From Rhabdophis nuchalis (Eukaryota > Chordata > Lepidosauria > Squamata > Natricidae): 64,000 bases of DNA. Shown here piece by piece: positions 6,040 through 54,296 of the stretch. The translations under genes and the position numbers were made by a program. The notes beneath the pieces are model-generated. The model was given only the letters and a program-made list of their open reading frames with translations. It ran no database searches and was not told the DNA's origin. Positions within the stretch are counted from its first letter, which is position 1. Each line of letters begins with the position of its first letter. The stretch is taken from contig CM077643.1 of assembly GCA_039707465.1 (NCBI GenBank), positions 319,615,919 to 319,679,918 on the forward strand, given 5' to 3'.

Positions 6040-6190
6040 ATTATTATATATATGCGCTTTCGTAGATTTTCACGGGTGACTGTGACAGTCACAGACCGAA
6101 GCCTGAGGATGACAAGTGAGATCTTGTCGAAACGTTGCAAAAAAAAATCCATGCTATATACACGGGAAAACACCCGAGGATGGCAACACC
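6040..6190 (+). mobile_element. Penelope-like terminal fragment with hammerhead-like core (candidate)
   Basis: The stretch has CGTAGATTTTCACGGGTGAC, a perfect 7-bp hairpin (GTGACTG-TGA-CAGTCAC), then CTGAGGA (6103-6109), a stem GACAAG/CTTGTC (6111-6116 with 6123-6128) and GAAACG (6129-6134). CUGANGA, stem II and GAAA are the conserved parts of hammerhead ribozymes, which Penelope-like elements are known to carry. Here one extra U (6110) separates CUGAGGA from stem II, and stem I would be about 2 bp, so activity is doubtful. The element identity is inferred from this motif and its layout. Confidence 0.45.
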
Positions 6191-6208
6191 AGCATATATC
6201 TATCTCTA

Positions 6209-6214
6209 TGTGTG

Positions 6215-6246
<32 letters not shown>
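6209..6246 (+). repeat. (TG)n microsatellite
   Basis: TG run with one TTTG interruption, joined directly to the inverted-repeat element starting at 6247. Confidence 0.9.
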
Positions 6247-6247
<1 letters not shown>

Positions 6248-6282
6248 TACGTTTTTGAGCTGATCAATAAATAAGTCAGGGA

Positions 6283-6329
6283 GACTAGGATAGATCTATT
6301 TCGAGCTTATTAGCTCTCATCAGCTAGCC
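6283..6329 (-). ncRNA. type-I hammerhead ribozyme motif
   Basis: On the minus strand the order is: stem I strand GGCUAG (6329-6324), core CUGAUGA (6323-6317), stem II GAGCU/AGCUC with loop AAUA (6316-6303), core GAAA (6302-6299), a short stem III AUAG/CUAU whose first A is the last A of GAAA (closed by 2 nt), C17 (6289), and stem I partner CUAGUC (6288-6283). Stem I pairs over 6 bp with one G-U. All invariant positions C3 U4 G5 A6 G8 A9 G12 A13 A14 are present. The predicted cleavage is after C at 6289, in an AUC triplet, which fits the NUH rule. The very short stem III is typical of type-I motifs in retroelements. Self-cleavage is predicted, not shown. Confidence 0.75.
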
Positions 6330-6339
6330 ATACCTTTAC

Positions 6340-6351
6340 TGGGATTCGAAC
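6340..6351 (-). promoter_or_regulatory. pol III B-box-like sequence
   Basis: The minus strand reads CTGGTTCGAATCCCAG, which contains the B-box consensus GGTTCGANTCC. It lies 10-20 nt upstream of the hammerhead motif in the same orientation, so pol III transcription would read through the ribozyme. An A box is less clear. Confidence 0.5.
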
Positions 6352-6529
6352 CAGGGCTGTATTACATGCCAGGCGAGAGCCAGGCGAGATTTATTGATCA
6401 GCTCAAAAACGTAACACACATATAAAAGAAAATTACACAATGGAATTCATGGCTTTCTGTCTAGATGGTCTCTTGTGATGAGCCGAAAGGCAGAAAAGGA
6501 AAAGCAGTGTGCTTCCTCCCTTAATTGGG

Positions 6530-6530
<1 letters not shown>

Positions 6531-6566
<36 letters not shown>
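6531..6566 (+). repeat. (GT)n microsatellite
   Basis: About 18 GT units; flanked by unremarkable A/T-rich DNA up to 6889. Confidence 0.95.
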
Positions 6567-6568
<2 letters not shown>

Positions 6569-6889
6569 ACCATGTATGTATTTATGTATATACGTAGGTA
6601 TGTAAGTATGGGAATGAGTGTATGTTTATTAGGTTGGATATAAATAGTAAAATATTTTCTTAGTTAACTATTAAGGAAAATTAATAGATATTGTTTAATA
6701 AAAAAGGTGGACTAGAAACAACACGATTTCTATGCAGACTACATTTCCAGGGTAAAGTACCAGGGGAGATTTTTTTTGGAATAGACAATGGATGCCATTA
6801 TGTGGTTATGTTTAAGTAAGACTTGTCTGAAGAAGAAGATAGACTAAATATGAAATATTAGAGGAGAATTCTGGTTTAATGATATTAAG

Positions 6890-7757
6890 ATATATAACTC
6901 CAACACTGGCCATTGGGGGCGAAACACTGGCCCCCGTGGAGAGGGCGCGCAATTTGGGTGTCCTCCTGGATTCTCAGCTGTCCATGGAGGACAATGTGAC
7001 GGCCGTGGCCAGGGGGGCGTTTTATCAGGTATGCCTGATGCGCCAATTGCGCCCCTTACTGGACCAGGCTGCCCTTCGCACAGTCACTCAAGCACTCGTG
7101 ACATCCCGGCTTGACTATTGTAATGCTCTCTACATGGGGCTCCCCTTGAGGTGCACTCGAAGATTACAGCTAGTTCAGAATGCAGCCGCACAGGTGATTA
7201 TGGGAGCCTCTAGGCATTCCCACATAACACCTCTCCTGCGCGAGCTGCACTGGCTACCTGTGGCCTTTCGGGTGCGCTTCAAGGTATTGATGACCATCTT
7301 CAAAGTGCTCCATGGCTCGGGGCCTAGTTATATGCGAGACCATCTTCTGCCCCATACATCCCTTCGACTGATCCGCTCCCACAGAGAGGGCCTTCTCAGG
7401 GTGCCGTCGGCCGGGCAATGCCAGTTGGCGACCCCCAGGGGAAGGGCCTTCTCTGTGGTGGGCCCTACCCTCTGGAACGACTTGCCCCCTGAACTGCGCA
7501 CCATCTCAGACCTCTGCCTCTTCCGCCAGCGTCTTAAAACGCACCTTTTCCAACAAGCCGGCCTAGCATAACCTCCCGTTTTGACTGTTTTTAGATAGAT
7601 TTTAATTCGGAGGATTTTATACTATTTTAGCACAGGGTATTGATTTAATAGCTTTTAAAATTTGTATTTTGTTATATTTGTATTGTTTTAAATTTCCTGT
7701 GCGCTGCCCTGGGTCCTTTTTGGAGAAGGTGCGGGGTATAAATTTGGAAAAAAAATG
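6890..7757 (+). pseudogene. 5'-truncated L2 LINE, RT C-terminal part
   Basis: An open frame ending at 7571 (about 227 residues from TPTLAIGGETLAPVERARNL) covers the segment after the RT palm: NLGVLLDSQLSMEDN, QLRPLLDQAALRTV, LDYCNALYMGLPLRC and ALWNDLPPELRTIS, ending QQAGLA and a stop. The 3' UTR has CCTGTGCGCTGCCCTGGGTCC and GGTGCGGGGTATAAAT. The palm motifs A-C and the endonuclease are missing through 5' truncation, the usual outcome of target-primed insertion. The listed ATG is fortuitous. Confidence 0.9.
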
Positions 7758-16529: not shown

Positions 16530-17570
16530 ATAATAATTAATAATAATAATTTATTAGATTTATAAACCGCCCCCTCTCCCCGAAGGGACTCAGGGCGGTG
16601 TACAGGAAAATTAAAAAACCATCTAAAAACATACAATATATCCAAAGTTAAAAACGAATTAAATTACCCTGTACTAAAATTTAAGAACATTAAAATTACA
16701 ACCCAGCCTATGCTAAAATTCCCCTAAAATCTAACATCCATTTACATGTTTGTCAGATGTTATATTACAAAAGTCTAAACTATTATGCAAGACCAGCTTG
16801 CTGAAAAAAATATGTTTTAAGTGAACGGCGAAAGAGGGGAAGGTCAGTGATAGTGCGATGTTCGGGGGGTAGGTCATTCCAGAGGGCCGGCCCTGCCACA
16901 GAGAAGGCCCTACCCCTGGGCACCGCTAGCCGGCATTGACTGGCGGTTGGTACCCTCAGTAGGCCCTCTCTGTGGGAGCGTATTGGACGCAGGGAGGTAT
17001 GTGGCAGGAGACGGTCCCGCAAGTAACTAGGCCCCGAGCCATGGAGCGATTTGAAGATGGTAACAAGCACCTTGAAGCGCATCCGGAAGGCCACCGGTAG
17101 CCAGTGCAGCTCGCCCAGGAGAGGTGTTACGTGGGAGTAACAAGAAGCTCCCAGAATCCCCCGCGCGGCCACATTCTGAACCAACTGGAGCCTCTGGGTG
17201 CACCTCAAGGGGAGCCTCATGTAGAGAGCGTTACAATAGTCTAAGCGAGACGTCACGAGTGCTTGAGTGACAATGCAGAGGGCATCTCGGTCGAGAAAGG
17301 GACGCAACTGGCGTACCAGGCGAACCTGGTAGAATGCCCCCCTGGTCACGGCCATCACATGGTCATCCAGGGACAGCCGCGAATCCAGGAGGACGCCCAA
17401 GTTGCGAGCCCTTTCCACGGGGGCCAATGACTCGCCCCCGATAACCAGCGATGGAATGAGCTGGCTATGCCGAGATGCCAGAAACCACAGCCACTCGGTC
17501 TTGGACGGGTTGAGCCGAAGTTTGTTACTTCCCATCCAGAGCCGCACGGCTTCCAAACACCGGGACATCA
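16530..17570 (-). pseudogene. 5'-truncated L2 LINE, RT C-terminal part
   Basis: A minus-strand open frame of about 260 residues (17574-16783) starts LWMGSNKLRLNPSKTEWLWF, the RT palm motif D region, and continues through NLGVLLDSRLSLDDHV and ALWNDLPPEHRTIT to QQAGLA and stop. The 3' UTR end reads, on plus, AACCGCCCCCTCTCCCCGAAG and GGGACTCAGGGCGGTG, a different tail subfamily from the AACAAGGAG copies. The (TAA)n-type 3' tail is at 16530-16555. No frameshift in the remaining segment, so the insertion is fairly young. Confidence 0.9.
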
Positions 17571-18607
17571 GCATGGATTGGAAAACCCAAAAAATATTTA
17601 GGAAATTTGTGCCCAGGTTATGAATAGTTCAGCACTATTCTGCTAATGGCAAGTTTTTTTCTGAATCTGAACATCATACCTTCTTAAAGTATTATGAATA
17701 ACCCTGGACTCATATTTCTGCTTTCTTTCTCACATCTGACAGTAATATCATTTTGATTCTGTTGTGTAAAAAGTTACAATTACTTTCTTTTTCAAGGGAT
17801 GTTGTTTTTTTTTTAACTATTTGGATCATTAATACCTTTTCTTTGTCTTGGAGCTCTTGGTGTAGTCAAAAGTGAACAAAAGTGTACATGCATACACACA
17901 CACACACACACACACAAATATTAGCAACCCATTTAACAAGCCCAGAATTTGACATAGAAAATGCCAGGAGGAATTTTTTTAAACAGAAAAATATTGAACA
18001 ACTTTTTCAGTTTTCCCTAGACTGAATATTTTTGGGGGGATGTATTTTAGTTGTCAACATTTATTTGTCTTTTTCTTTAATTACAGCTTTGAATTGAGAA
18101 ACTGCAGTGGGACAGTTGCAGTACACGAGTGTATTTTGTTGTTGTTATTATTAGTCTTTTTGCCTTAAGCACTCATGGCTGATACTGAATCTCTCTTCTT
18201 TTGAAGTCTACTTACAAATGAATGGTTTGTGTGTTGCCCTTTCAGGGCATGTCAAATTTTTCAGCTTTCGATTTCCAAACATTAAGGGTGCTCAAAAGTT
18301 ATGACATGCCTTGGAGATTATAAAAAAAATAGTTTGGTTGCTTTAATATAATTTAGATGTGCTTGGTAAGTAACTACATAAATTATCATAACTTAAAAAA
18401 ACATTTTGTTTATTTACATGGAAATTCATTACCCACAAAAACAGAATAATCATAATGGGGAATGTCCATGAAGGTGTCTGCATCCAAAACGTTAAGATGG
18501 CAGCTGTTACCAAAGTCTCCCTGTTTTTGTGTGTATTGCACACAGGTTCCATGCAAAAATGGGACAGGGATTTAGTAGTGGTCCCTCTTGCAGGAGGTGC
18601 AATGAAA

Positions 18608-25235: not shown

Positions 25236-26263
25236 CAGGGGTCTCCAACCTTTGCAACTTTAAGTCTTAAGGCTGGCTGGAGAATTCTGGGAGCTGAATA
25301 ATAATAATAATAATTTAATTTGTAAACCGCTCCCTCTCCCCACAGGGACTCGGGGCGGTGCACAGGGAGAATAAAAACAATAAATATACAACCATAGCAT
25401 AAAAACGAATTAAATCAAATACCTGTGCTAAAAATCCCATTAAACACTAAAATACCCTATAATTAAATAAAAACCCCATAGCAGAGAGATTACCCTAGGC
25501 CGGCCAAGCAGAAAAGATATGTTTTTAATTTCAGGCGGAAGGAGCGGAGGTCCGTGGTTGTTCGAATATCAGGGGGAAGGTCGTTCCAGAGGGCTGGGCC
25601 CGCCACAGAGAGCCACCTTCCCCTGGGCGTTGCCCGCTGACAAAGTCTAGTGGACGGCACCCGGAGAAGTCCCTCTCTGTGGGAGCGAATCGGCCGTGAG
25701 AATGTATGAGGCAGGATCCGATCCCGCAGATAGCTAGGTCCCGAGCCATGGAAGATGATAACTAACACCTTGAAGCGCACCCGGAAGACGACAGGCAGCC
25801 AGTGCAGCTCGCGCAAGAGCGGTGTTACATGGGTAAACCTAGCGGTTCTCATAATTGCTCGCGCGGCTGTATTCTGGACCAACTGAAGTCTCCGGGTGCA
25901 CCTCAAGGGGAGCCCCATGTAGAGAGAGTTACAATAGTCCAGTCGGGATGTCACGAGTGCATGAGTGACTGTGTGAAGGGTGTCCCGATCCAATAGGGGG
26001 CGCAATTGGCGAACCAGGCGAACCTGGTAAAACACCCTCCTGGCCACGGCTGTCACTTGATCTTCCATGGACAGCCGGGCATCTAGGAGGACACCCAAAT
26101 TGCGCACCCCATCCACAGGGGCAAGATGTTCGCCCCCTATGGCCAGCGATGGAGTCAGCTGGTTGAATCGGGCAGCCGGAAACCACAGCCACTCAGTCTT
26201 GGTCGGGTTGAGTCTGAGTCTGAAGTCCTTCAGACTTAAAGTTGCAAAGGTTGGAGACCCCTG
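25236..26263. mobile_element. palindromic hAT MITE split by an L2
   Basis: Left half 25236-25298 (CAGGGGTCTCCAACCTTTGC) and right half 26220-26263 (AAAGGTTGGAGACCCCTG). Flanked by a perfect 8-bp duplication CACTACAG (25228-25235 and 26264-26271). The halves match the uninterrupted copy at 55383-55488. The L2 insertion duplicated CTGAA (25294-25298 and 26220-26224). Confidence 0.9.
25299..26219 (-). pseudogene. 5'-truncated L2 LINE nested in a MITE
   Basis: The minus-strand frame from about 26220 to 25490 starts RLRLNPTKTEWLWFPAAR and runs through NLGVLLDARLSMEDQV and ALWNDLPPDIRTTTDLRSF to CLAGLG and a stop. Upstream residues of the open frame (QGSPTFATLSLKDF) come from the MITE, not the LINE, so the apparent start is chimeric. 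An internal in-frame deletion lies near FKVLVIIFHGSGPSY. The 3' tail is (TAA)n at 25299-25320. Confidence 0.9.
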
Positions 26264-26271
26264 CACTACAG

Positions 26272-27206
26272 GATTGCATGAAAATCTGAAAGAAGTCAGA
26301 ATACTTTAGCAAACAACAGAGGGATTATGCTCACTTTAGATATCATCACACTCCTTTCAAATATGCATAACCCAATTAGCAACTTCCAATTTAATGCACA
26401 GTGATTTCCCAGCAATGCAAAGGAGCACCCTGGAAGATAATTTAGCTTTCATGGAAGAGACCTGGAAACTAGGTGGTTGCCACAGCTATGGAACATCTGT
26501 AGATTTGTAGACAAAATAAATACATCTCTGCCCTTCAGAACAGCAGGGAATAGGGCTCCATAGCAAATGAATGATCATGAACATAGCAATAAAATCACTG
26601 GTTTTTTCCCCACTTTTACAGTGAAGAGCATGGGGAATCTTGGCAAGCAAATGCAATGTAAAATCTACTGCCAAATCCAAATGCTACATAGGTCACAGCC
26701 GTGCCTTTATTTTCCATGCCATCTATCTGGGAAGAAGGCCATGAAAACTGAGCAATTTTCATGGTCCTAAACCTGCTTGATTTTTGAATTTAATTTGCAG
26801 ACTGGTTGCTGCACATTAAGTACTGGGTGGATAGTCTGAATTCTAAAAGCAGGTCAATGGCAGAACATTTAGTTTAGGAATTTGGGGTTATCTTCTTCAG
26901 TGGAGTATTTCAGGAAATGCAGGTTACTTGGGAACCAGGAGTTAATTTTATACTGTTGCTTCAATTTCTACTCAACTCAACTTTATCTATTTATTTATTT
27001 CCCCCCCCCCAAGCAAGTTACAAATATAATTTAAACACGGCATTAGCTAAAACAGTTTAACAAGTAAAATATTTCATATTACATAATAGACTTAAAACCT
27101 CAACTCATTGTTTGTTACTAAGAGTCTTATTTTTACAGTCATAGTTAAATTTTTTGCTCTTGTCACTTATGTGACGATTTTCATTTAAAAGGAAAAATGT
27201 TATGCG
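26272..27206. other. no recognisable gene
   Basis: Mixed DNA with a C10 run at 27001-27010. No repeat or domain recognised. Confidence 0.4.
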
Positions 27207-46577: not shown

Positions 46578-47221
46578 CTGATGGAAATAGTAGATATCAA
46601 CTTCCCTCTTAAGCCTGAATCTTATTTACTTGGCATTAAACCAAATCAAACTCAGAACCAAGACTGGTACCTTTTTATACACATTACAACAGCAACAAGG
46701 ATGGCCATTGCGCAACAATGGAAGGATAGTAATGTACCAACAGACCACCTCGTCATATCCAAAATTTTCAACTGTGCTGAATCCGATAGGCTAACATATA
46801 TCTTAAAAGATAAAACAGAGTCGATTTATGCTCAAACCTGGGAAAAATGGTACATATGGTACGACAAGAGAACAAAAGGATACCACAGTGAACAACCAAA
46901 TAGTATAAACGTGGAATAAATACAAGGAAAAAAGTGAGAAGACAATGAACTTAAGATAATTATAGAGATACATAGGCAGATAGTTAAGTTAAAATGTATA
47001 TAAGAATGAATAGAACAGACTGGGACAAACAAAAATTTTTGAATTTGGGGAATAATTATATCCCCGGTATGCCCACCCTTTTCTTTTCTTTCTTCTATCT
47101 CCCTTCTCCCCTCTCCCCCTACCTTCCTTTCTGCCTTAATAATGTATGTCGATTTTTCTTTATATTTGTTAAATGTTACTTTTATATCTATATTAATAAA
47201 GATTTTTTAAAAAAAAAAAAA
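46578..47221 (+). pseudogene. 5'-truncated L1 LINE 3' end inserted in the L2
   Basis: The frame to 46919 reads DWYLFIHITTATRMAIAQQW, LVISKIFNCAESDRLTYIL and TWEKWYIWYDKR, like the C-terminus of L1 ORF2. A 3' UTR with AATAAAG and a poly(A) run (47207-47221) follows. Poly(A) and truncation point to L1 target-primed insertion; the flanking duplication is short and unclear (TGGC on both sides). It separates the L2 endonuclease from the L2 RT. Confidence 0.8.
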
Positions 47222-49262
47222 GAGTGGCCAAACATGAGTATTGTGCCACCCTTATCGCGTCCGCGGAAAACCGCCCTGCCACCCTGTTTGGGGTGACCCG
47301 CTCCCTCCTTCATCTGAGGCCGCGGGAAGCCCCTTTGCAGGGTCGAGCAGAGGAATTTGGAGTGTTTCTGCAGGACAAAATCACTCAGATTCAGAACGAG
47401 CTGTCCTCCACGGAAAGTGATCCAGTCGATTTGTCCGGTGTTGGTCTTGAGATAACACCTTGGGAGGAGTTTGACTTTGTCACTACCGAGGATATGGACA
47501 GGTTGCGGAGGAACCTTAGAGCCACCTCATGTTTATTGGACCCGTGTCCCTCCTGGCTTGTACTGGCATCCTGGGAGGTGACACGAGGCTGGCTCCAGGA
47601 TATTGTTAATGCGTCTTTGAGCGAGGGGTTCTTACCTACCGCCTTGAAAGAGGCGGTGGTGAGACCTCTCCTCAAAAAGTCTTCCCTGGACCCAGCATTG
47701 TTGGAAAATTTCCGTCCGGTCTCCAACCTTCACTTTCTTGCGAAGGTTGTAGAGAGTGTGGTGGCTCAACAGTTTCCTCGTCACCTGGAGGAAGTTGATT
47801 ACCTAGACCTGCGCCAGTCCAGCTTCCGACCCGGTCACAGCACTGAGACGGCATTGGTCGCGTTGGTTGATGATCTCTGGAGGGCACGGGATAGAGGTTG
47901 CTCCGCTATCCTATTCCTATTAGACCTTTCAGCGGCTTTTGATATCATCGACCATGGTATCTTATTGCACCGATTGGGGGGGTTGGGGCTGAGAGGTACC
48001 GTTTTGCGGTGGTTCTCGTCCTATCTCTCTGGTCGGTCGCAATGGCTGTTGGCAGGAGGGCAGAGGTCGTCCCCGAGGCCCCTCACATGTGGGGTTCCTC
48101 AGGGGTTGGTCCTCTCGCCACTTCTGTTCAACACCTACATGAAGCCGCTAGGCGAGCTCATCCGTGGTTTTGGGGCGGAATATCATCTGTACGCTGATGA
48201 CACCCAGCTGTACATATCCACCCCAAACCACCCCAATGATGCCGTCGAGGTGCTGTCCCGGGGTTTGGAGGCCGTATGGGTCTGGATGGGTGGTAACAAA
48301 CTCAAACTCAACCCGTCCAAGACTGAGTGGCTGTGGTTTCCGGCACCCCGGTTCAGCCAGATAAGTCCAACACTGGCCATTGGAGGCGAACAACTGGCCC
48401 CCGTGGAGAGGGTGCACAACTTGGGCGTCCTCCTGGATTCCCGGCTGTCCATGGAGGACCATGTGGTGGCCGTGGCCAGGAGGGCGTTTTATCAGGTACG
48501 CCTGATACGCCAGTTGCGCCCCTTACTGGACCGGGGGGCCCTTCGCACAGTCACTCAAGCGCTTGTGACATCCCGGCTGGATTACTGTAACGCTCTCTAC
48601 ATGGGGCTCCCCTTGAGGTGCACTCGAAAGCTACAGTTAGTTCAGAATGCGGCCGCGCGGGTGATTATGGGTGCCCCAAGGCAAGCCCATATAACACCTC
48701 TCCTGCGCGAGCTGCACTGGCTGCCTGTGGCCTTTCTAGTGCGCTTCAAGGAGTTGATGACCATCTTCAAATCGCTCCATGGCTCGGGGCCTAGCTATAT
48801 ACGAGACCGCCTACTGCCCCATACATCCCTTCGCCTGATCTGCTACCACAGAGAGGGTCTTCTCTGGGTGCCGTCGGCCAGGCAATGCCGGTTGGCGACG
48901 CCCAGGGGAAGGGCCTTCTCTGTGGCGGGCCCGGCCCTCTGGAATGACCTACCCCCCGACCTACGCACTATCTCAGACCTCCGCCTCTTCCGCCAATGTC
49001 TTAAGACATATCTATTCCAACAAGCCGGCCTGGCATAGCCCCCCGTTTCTGACTTTTTATATATATAAATTGTAATTTGCAATTGTTCCTATCCAGGTAT
49101 TTAAATGGGTTTTTAGCACGGGTTTAATAATTTAATATGTTTTTAATGATGTATATTGTTGTTTTTTATTATGGTTTTAATAATGCCTGTGCGCCGCCCT
49201 GGGTCCTAACAAGGAGAAGGGCGGGGTATAAATCCGAAAATAAAAAAATAAAATAAAAATAA
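47222..49262 (+). CDS. L2-clade LINE reverse transcriptase, open for 604 codons, with 3' UTR
   Basis: Non-LTR retrotransposon reverse transcriptase, here the RT half of the L2 ORF2 (47224-49038). It would prime cDNA at nicked target DNA. Seen: VAKHEYCATLIASAENRPAT linker (1-20), FRPVSNLHFLAKVVE near residue 165, FRPGHSTETALVALVDDLW near 200, motif A LDLSAAFDIIDHGIL with the first catalytic Asp, motif B GVPQGLVLSPLLFN (QGL where QGS is usual), motif C YHLYADDTQLY with both catalytic Asp, motif D LKLNPSKTEWLWF, then thumb NLGVLLDSRLSMEDHV and the C-terminal ALWNDLPPDLRTIS..QQAGLA. No stops or shifts. The true start is upstream in the endonuclease, now cut off by the L1; the listed ATG is incidental. 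The 3' UTR ends with CCTGTGCGCCGCCCTGGGTC and AACAAGGAGAAGGGCGGGG plus an AATAAA-rich tail. Confidence 0.9.
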
Positions 49263-53293: not shown

Positions 53294-53469
53294 ATTTAAG
53301 GCATGAAAAAGAAAGAAGGAGTAACATTGCTTTCATAGCGAGGAACAATATAGCAAAGGTAGTACGTGGGTACAATTCTGTGAGCAACTACCGTATTTAT
53401 CGGCGTATAACACGCACAGGCGTATAACACGCACCTTCATTTTAAGAGGGAAATTTCAGGAAAAAAATT

Positions 53470-54065: not shown

Positions 54066-54296
54066 GACGGCCGCGGCGCTTCGCTGAGGGAAAAAGAAGA
54101 CAGCGCAGCCGCCTTGCGAACGCGGAGGACTTAGGTACTTCCGGGTCCACGGTCCAAAGGGATCGCTACTGTAAAAACATGGTATGTTTATATTATATCA
54201 GCGTATAACACGCATATCGGCGTATAACACGCATACATCATTTGCCCCCTATTTTCAGGGGGGGAAAGTGCGTGTTATACGCCGATAAATACGGTA

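Follow-up and report, generated by a model that had tools for sequence, protein, structure and literature searches.

A probable retrozyme family in the squamate Rhabdophis nuchalis and its association with a Penelope-like element

Retrozymes and related hammerhead elements

Metazoan non-LTR retrozymes are described as non-coding tandem repeats of 150–450 bp that have a GC content below 50% and carry a type I hammerhead ribozyme (Cervera & de la Pena 2020, PMC7229834). They occur in many copies, in genomes that also contain Penelope-like elements (PLEs), are expressed as linear and circular RNA, and have target-site duplications of more than 4 bp when these are present. The same account reports them from invertebrates and amphibians, and proposes PLEs as their mobilisers on the basis of common features and co-occurrence (PMC7229834). 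The PAc/Poseidon PLE of Anolis codes for a reverse transcriptase (RT) and a GIY-YIG endonuclease (Frangieh 2024, PMC11167929). In vitro its protein is reported to cut and extend both strands and to start internally in an AC-rich stem-loop, with a hammerhead upstream; genomic copies have an optional 30–40-bp tail and form partial tandems (PMC11167929). SMalpha elements of Schistosoma are short and SINE-like, with a type I hammerhead, and one member measures 335 bp (PMC8490949). The family treated below resembles SMalpha by description, not by sequence, and belongs to another host phylum.

The amniote hammerheads of C10orf118 and RECK are those termed HH9 and HH10. They are described as single conserved intronic copies (PMC3088659, PMC6155905), and conserved intronic hammerheads have been traced to an element apparently still active in some frogs (Perreault 2011, PMC3088659). 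Short squamate repeats are known as Sauria SINE and Squam1–3 SINEs; the word ‘hammerhead’ is absent from these three papers (PMC13295347, PMC7983390, PMC10702118). Sauria SINE shares a squamate host with the present family and is set apart, by description rather than by sequence, in ending in (ACCTTT)n. Titles and abstract openings in the open-access literature gave no report of retrozymes in amniotes or squamates.

The locus considered here lies in a 64,000-nucleotide stretch of R. nuchalis DNA, termed the window. It is best read, with a probability of about 0.84, as a 5′-truncated, 5′-inverted insertion of a high-copy, non-autonomous, non-LTR squamate retrozyme. In the sequence properties tested, the unit agrees with the published description of metazoan retrozymes: type I hammerhead, unit size, absence of coding capacity, GC content below 50%, many copies, and PLEs in the same genome. 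A weak stem III and a palindromic tetraloop are also described for axolotl retrozymes, whose units are 330 and 350 bp. The amniote host and the A- and B-box matches are new relative to that description, as are loci that are mostly head-to-head instead of long direct arrays, discrete 5′ stops, microsatellite-linked 3′ ends and PLE fusions.

The inverted insertion and its 340-nt unit

Features of the locus are given below. Unit positions (u1–u340) are those of 1301–1640 in L002, a relative from the same genome; on the minus strand, window position equals 6582 minus unit position.

6082–6196, plus strand: 3′ end of a PLE remnant; matches at 95% the 3′ end found after the endonuclease open reading frame of locus L062
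6209–6247, plus strand: (TG)n tract flanking the insertion on its left, taken to be the target microsatellite and also the 3′ tail of the antisense arm
6241–6272, minus strand: 32-bp inverted-repeat arm, tail u309–u340 of the antisense arm (inverted-repeat search, unit alignment)
6242–6381, minus strand: antisense arm of the retrozyme, u201–u340, 100% identical over 140 nt to the L002 unit
6278–6336, minus strand: hammerhead with outer stem I (covariation helix 1, 90.1% of cells paired)
6283–6329, minus strand: predicted type I hammerhead ribozyme with stem I, CUGAUGA, stem II, GAAA and stem III
6342–6352, minus strand: B box GGTTCGAATCC, T-arm-like
6389–6420, plus strand: 32-bp inverted-repeat arm, the same tail as the 5′ start (u310) of the sense arm
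6389–6529, plus strand: sense arm of the retrozyme, u310–u340 then u1–u112, by homology to the unit
6531–6566, plus strand: (TG)n tract, right outer flank

A reading of the locus from sequence only had proposed a 170-bp element enclosed by perfect 27-bp inverted ends. The repeat is indeed perfect, and extends over 32 bp (6241–6272 with 6389–6420), but its halves are not element termini: homology runs on to the right as far as 6529, and other copies have variable arms. The inverted ends are one 32-nt tail present twice, in two opposed arms, because the window holds two unit pieces joined 5′ to 5′. The antisense arm is 5′ truncated; it begins at u201, past the A box at u187, which is therefore missing here. 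The sense arm extends past the box originally drawn. The two form a head-to-head pair without u113–u200 (about 88 nt), and together they read as a single RNA of about 372 nt with its 5′ part inverted and u113–u200 lost. In the window, the tail u309–u340 has no second match outside the insertion. In relatives, (CA)n or a comparable microsatellite comes after the 3′ end of the unit in most cases. No target-site duplications were called when flanks, which are often microsatellites, were inspected by eye.

Searches covered the window's own assembly (348 contigs; 1.918 Gb, or 1.92 Gb). The 33-nt core pattern GCTAGCTGATGAGAGCTNNNNAGCTCGAAATAG, which has 29 fixed bases, gave 4,352 exact genome matches, and the reversed control gave none. 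The idea of a short retroelement combining a hammerhead with pol III-type box matches is supported by thousands of genome copies, by base-pair covariation and by the near-absence of TTTT terminators on the sense strand. The window core (6388–6273, minus strand) yielded 43 matches (best 40 of 2,237 candidates scored). Forty of them, the window's own included, are 99–100% identical; the other 39 near-identical matches cover query positions 8–116, and as they all start at position 8, the first seven bases belong to a joint specific to the window locus. Also found were 41 units, query included, that cover 330 nt or more of the 340 and are 96–100% identical (best 40 of 3,351 candidates scored), and among 47 full units nearest-neighbour identity reaches 99.1%. 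Other copies are abundant; they consist of variable arms around the 32-nt tail and do not share the same two ends. Retrozyme sequence is present in 2 of 12 arbitrarily placed 4-kb pieces, and by rough extrapolation the total may be tens of thousands. The family is high-copy and young.

Loci for closer study were chosen by similarity or an intact core, not at random. They comprise the eight best matches to the window core (L001–L008), the 30 best matches to the L002 unit (L014–L043) and 30 regions around exact-core sites that were among the first places listed, all on contig C1 (L045–L064, L078–L087). L009–L014, L029 and L044 were excluded from counts as duplicates, overlaps or unrelated sequence.

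The unit, delimited by reading outward from copies, is about 340 nt long and circularly permuted. It contains, in order, A- and B-box matches, the type I hammerhead (u246–u304, cut predicted between u293 and u294) and a 32-nt AC-rich tail that ends in GTAACACAC, and is followed by (CA)n. Direct copies spaced 337 nt apart in L002 point to a tandem arrangement, and 56 of 212 arms run across the u340|u1 junction with 60 nt or more on each side; yet only 26 of 113 close joints are direct. GC content is 42.7%, and the longest open frames are 58–60 aa, also when the unit is read as a direct dimer (up to 90 aa in single unit copies). The translated unit had no match among proteins, and a 22-nt exact scan of viral contigs, and of these only, gave no matches. 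L015:1017–1245, L034:2909–2970 and L024:2590–2650 appear to be older, diverged retrozyme subfamilies with different stem pairs, and a subfamily tree could date the family.

Hammerhead ribozyme and pol III box matches

All core residues of the hammerhead that had been placed at 6329–6283 of the minus strand are present. In stem I, GGCTAG (6329–6324) pairs with CTAGTC (6288–6283). The core CTGATGA (6323–6317) is followed by stem II (6316–6312 with 6307–6303), GAA (6302–6300) and a 3-bp stem III, ATA/TAT (6299–6297 with 6292–6290), whose loop is a palindromic GATC. The motif layout leads to the same predicted cleavage site as before, after C6289. Outer stem I is most commonly AGGG/CCCU among copies; the window copy has AAGG, with one mismatch. 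Because stem III has just 3 bp, the monomer would be expected to cleave weakly.

A covariance-model search had been suggested earlier as a check. The Rfam model Hammerhead_HH9 (RF02275) matches 6338–6269 of the minus strand at 30.6 bits, with an E-value of 6.1e-6 that refers to 351 bases searched, but this is under its gathering score of 52; across the whole window, no match attains a gathering score. HH9 is the best Rfam ribozyme match of the window copy, and HH9/HH10 have a similar stem I with an internal loop. Unlike these single-copy hammerheads, the present family is young and interspersed. The isolated 56-nt motif folds no better than shuffles (z-score −0.31), and for this reason a single copy alone would not convince.

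A candidate second hammerhead at u50–u85 (window 6476–6496, plus strand, form TGATGAGCCGAAAGGCAGAAA) was rejected, as its core has G at C3 and an extra A. Rfam models gave no match at u50–u85 of L002 with E up to 1. The sequence is hammerhead-core-like, and is possibly a degenerate second ribozyme.

Evidence for the ribozyme comes from comparison of copies. Alignment A1 has 46 distinct rows: the window copy, the exact-core site L064:800–861 and 44 neighbour copies, i.e. copies that did not cause their locus to be fetched. Two neighbour rows with deletions inside the hammerhead (L028:741–796 and L034:596–652) were left out. Standard pairs fill 95.4% of cells in the four helices (93.2% in shuffles, at most 50.9% in slid alignments). 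Both sides have changed in 7 of 18 pairs (shuffle mean 3.7; 3 of 500 as high; slid at most 4), and in 23 cells (shuffle mean 5.7; 0 of 500 as high; slid at most 5), many of them inherited within subfamilies, so that independent events are fewer than 23. Such changes are seen in all four helices, and L034:2909–2970 has several substitutions at once with pairing kept. Additional pair types are not above shuffles in the 46 copies (16 against 17.5; 485/500).

Core conservation was assessed by setting aside 60 of 113 rows as anchors; two of the remaining 53 (L064 near 772 and L054 near 1159) are exact-core sites, which left 51 neighbour copies. In these, the 12 fixed core sites diverge by 1.7%, against 8.7% in flanking sites. 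The whole core is intact in 39 of the 51 and damaged in 12; intact cores number 41 when all 53 rows are used, and 32 of 42 with loci fetched by unit similarity only. Stem I pair u256–u296 is U-A in 39 neighbours and C-G in 12, and pair u258–u294 is G-C in 39, A-U in eight, U-A in two and unpaired in two. Position C17 is C in 38, A in 11, U in one and a gap in one; only G at this position should stop cleavage, and one anchor copy (L039:1534–1595) has it. By this comparison the canonical type I hammerhead is under selection; its RNA should be able to cut itself.

The B-box-like sequence reported previously is confirmed as a match to GGTTCGAATCC at 6352–6342. In the unit it lies at u230, with an A box TGGCTTAATGG at u187. 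Divergence over 88 rows is 3.6% in the B box, 8.8% in the A box and 12.2% in the rest, so the A box is only mildly conserved. The sequence-only reading had also called the element tRNA-headed. This did not hold: the locus has no complete tRNA head, its A box is deleted, ARAGORN finds no tRNA in the window, the best Rfam tRNA score in L002 is 19.6 against 29, and the minimum-energy fold shows no cloverleaf. The unit has the A and B boxes of a tRNA-derived SINE; it has no tRNA-like fold at a 5′ head, the boxes being internal and ahead of the hammerhead. TTTT pol III terminators occur in 2 of 47 full units on the sense strand and in 47 of 47 on the antisense strand, with 39% of units expected to have one under a first-order Markov model and 74% under base shuffling. 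The sense-strand scarcity fits pol III read-through of several units.

Break-points, PLE neighbours and a possible pathway

Boundaries were sampled in 66 loci with 212 arms, after arms no more than 20 nt from a locus end had been dropped. Thirty-eight of the 212 arms have 5′ ends at u305–u314 (6.2 expected), mostly 13–16 nt 3′ of the predicted cut and just past u304, the last base of stem I that is paired; only 13 fall at u290–u304, which spans the cut. Because the ends lie 13–16 nt past the cut, cleavage may or may not be what sets them. The 3′ ends cluster from u336 onward into (CA)n (86) and at u143–u156 beside AT-rich repeats (55). The 45 arms that start at u303–u316 fall into length classes of 28–76 (11), 143–186 (12), 362–415 (15) and 498–523 nt (7). 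These four classes are what a fixed 5′ stop would predict together with starts at u340 and u147 on an RNA longer than one unit. Reverse transcription would accordingly begin within an RNA that is multimeric or circular, and end at the hammerhead in its cut or folded state. Alternatively, the 5′ cluster may mark a true RNA 5′ end near u308 of other cause.

A second cluster of 5′ ends lies at the B box/T arm, u227–u241 (26 of 212 in the 66 loci, 9.4 expected). A stop at a tRNA-type modification is conceivable here, a reading weakened by alignment blur and the choice of loci.

Joints within 60 bp number 113; head-to-head joints make up 61 of these, tail-to-tail and direct joints 26 each, and a head-to-head joint is present in 47 of 66 loci. 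In a 56-locus set there are 49 close head-to-head pairs. In 32 of them the two arms have sequence in common beyond the tail, which calls for two templates or a multimer, since a single monomer RNA cannot give rise to such a pair. The other 17, the window pair included, could come from twin priming on one RNA.

The repeat at 6082–6196 sits in sense orientation directly before the (TG)n microsatellite. It is assigned to a PLE 3′ end because in L062 it follows a PLE C-terminal open reading frame, an adjoining stretch (L077) has RT motifs (PF00078, E 7.2e-9) and its closest relatives in Crotalus tigris, and a GIY-YIG motif can be read by eye in L035 and L062. The PLE was recognised from translations, the RT domain PF00078 and protein relatives, many of which have PF26215; the nearest come from two snakes and an agamid, with a protein of Crotalus tigris as the best match (86%, covering 73% of the query). 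The L035 endonuclease frame had no Pfam match. A GIY-YIG profile (PF01541) match at L044, found in one place among the best 150 of 1,267 candidates, is unrelated to the PLE; its translation is presumably an SLX1 exon. A separate PLE in this genome has both RT and GIY-YIG parts, and the retrozyme unit has neither. No hammerhead was found in the fetched PLE, a 5′-truncated copy, and no recovered PLE copy has its own leader or hammerhead. Just upstream of the remnant, CTTTCGTAGATTTTCACGGGT at 6057–6077 is the inverse of the PLE's terminal motif.

Among 55 retrozyme loci, 19 contain a PLE 3′ end and eight contain endonuclease fragments; neither is seen in any of 12 random 4-kb pieces, a small sample in which retrozyme pieces occur in 2 of 12 and PLE pieces in none. 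The count predates the last ten loci, of which L083 also has PLE 3′-end pieces. Gapless same-sense PLE–retrozyme fusions occur in 3 of 65 loci: PLE to u308 in L028, PLE to u91 in L063, where the PLE piece is only 25 nt, and u340 to PLE in L038. (In this search the first 57 nt of the PLE query also matched random pieces L066 and L075; this was taken as an unrelated repeat and ignored.) In L062 a PLE 3′ end is followed by retrozyme sequence in the same sense, and in L035 PLE and retrozyme meet head to head, 8 nt apart. Fusions of this kind would be expected if a single enzyme switched templates; alternatively, one element may have inserted into the other and sequence was then lost. Closeness to PLEs could also stem from a shared preference for microsatellites.

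It is the break-points of the copies that suggest a PLE as mobiliser, and the element is probably a squamate retrozyme moved in this way; if it is a retrozyme, PLE mobilisation is somewhat favoured. By analogy, the joints and 3′ ends fit an enzyme of the Anolis PLE type better than a LINE. The unit shares with the published PAc description a hammerhead upstream of an AC-rich internal RT start, a tail of similar length and partial tandems, and two-ended copying would match the cutting and extension of both strands by PAc in vitro (PMC11167929). It differs in having no RT or endonuclease frame, and its copies are often flanked by (CA)n, (TG)n or (TA)n, whereas PAc is described as preferring AT-rich DNA.

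A possible pathway can be outlined. Pol III would read through tandem units, whose hammerheads would divide the transcript into unit lengths; ligation may then turn these into circles. The copying enzyme, most likely the reverse transcriptase of a PLE, would begin within the RNA at microsatellite-like sites, beside (CA)n at u~340 and beside (TA)n at u~147. Its target would be DNA with a break inside a microsatellite; copying would often proceed from the two broken ends and so give head-to-head copies, and the cDNA would end at the hammerhead's 3′ base. At the window locus, this would have split a (TG)n tract and left arms u201–u340 and u310–u112 facing each other. The fullest version of this proposal is tentative, with the odds slightly against it: a living amniote retrozyme family whose insertions record every step of the pathway. 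In it a PLE RT would take multimeric or circular RNA, processed by hammerheads, as its template, begin at internal microsatellite-like sites on the two ends of a broken microsatellite, halt where the hammerhead is folded, and change templates between its own mRNA and the RNA of the retrozyme. If true, this would reveal the engine of animal retrozymes and provide a relative, in amniotes, of the elements from which the conserved human intronic hammerheads are proposed to descend. A high-copy squamate family would be an amniote counterpart of the frog element of Perreault 2011, and the gapless fusions, defined 5′ stops and head-to-head joints make PLE mobilisation testable in a genome that has a PLE.

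Other explanations have to be weighed. A LINE (CR1/L2 or Bov-B) might have spread the unit as a SINE of tRNA type, with the hammerhead as a passenger. Box matches and LINE-like frames in the window speak for this, as do microsatellite-like 3′ tails of the kind described for Bov-B and its SINEs (PMC13295347). It is nevertheless unlikely: joints are mostly head-to-head, read-through arms are common, the boxes are internal and not at a 5′ head, the hammerhead covaries, and the tail is confined to the insertion within the window. Fusions were found with the PLE, in a search directed at PLE sequence. Distinctly unlikely, too, is the view that the unit is the pseudo-LTR leader of a PLE and its copies PLE debris, not an independent retrozyme. 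PLE leaders are described as carrying hammerheads, and PLEs as forming tandem or partial-tandem repeats (PMC11167929); the pieces are co-located, and the L062 arrangement could be so explained. However, the 340-nt unit lacks a long open frame even as a direct dimer, 36 of 55 loci have no PLE 3′ end, and unit copies have their own defined length classes. The hammerhead is canonical, whereas those of PLEs are described as minimal (PMC6155905).

The remaining two readings concern the locus more narrowly. That the hammerhead is a chance or dead look-alike within a repeat would account for the Rfam score under the family cut-off, the unremarkable fold of the 56-nt motif and the damaged core in 12 of 51 neighbour copies, but is very improbable given both-side changes in all four helices, a protected core and substitutions that together preserve pairing, as in L034. 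Hardly credible is a DNA element of 170 bp, foldback or MITE-like, with the 27–32-bp inverted repeats as its ends. The repeat is perfect and symmetric, and the MFE z-score is −7.8; against this stand the homology beyond the right repeat and the other copies, where variable arms begin (5′) or finish (3′) with the 32 nt, in direct and in inverted order. For the copies examined this reading was rejected, as variable arms surround one 32-nt tail and inverted repeats do not mark both ends of copies.

Elsewhere in the window there are LINE-like stop-free frames at 47200–49035 and 6843–7568 on the plus strand and at 16786–17628 and 25493–26305 on the minus strand. The frame at 47200, 612 residues long, looks like that of a reverse transcriptase and is perhaps fairly young. 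Short tandem motifs based on GCGTATAACACGC occur at 53402–53434 and 54195–54235.
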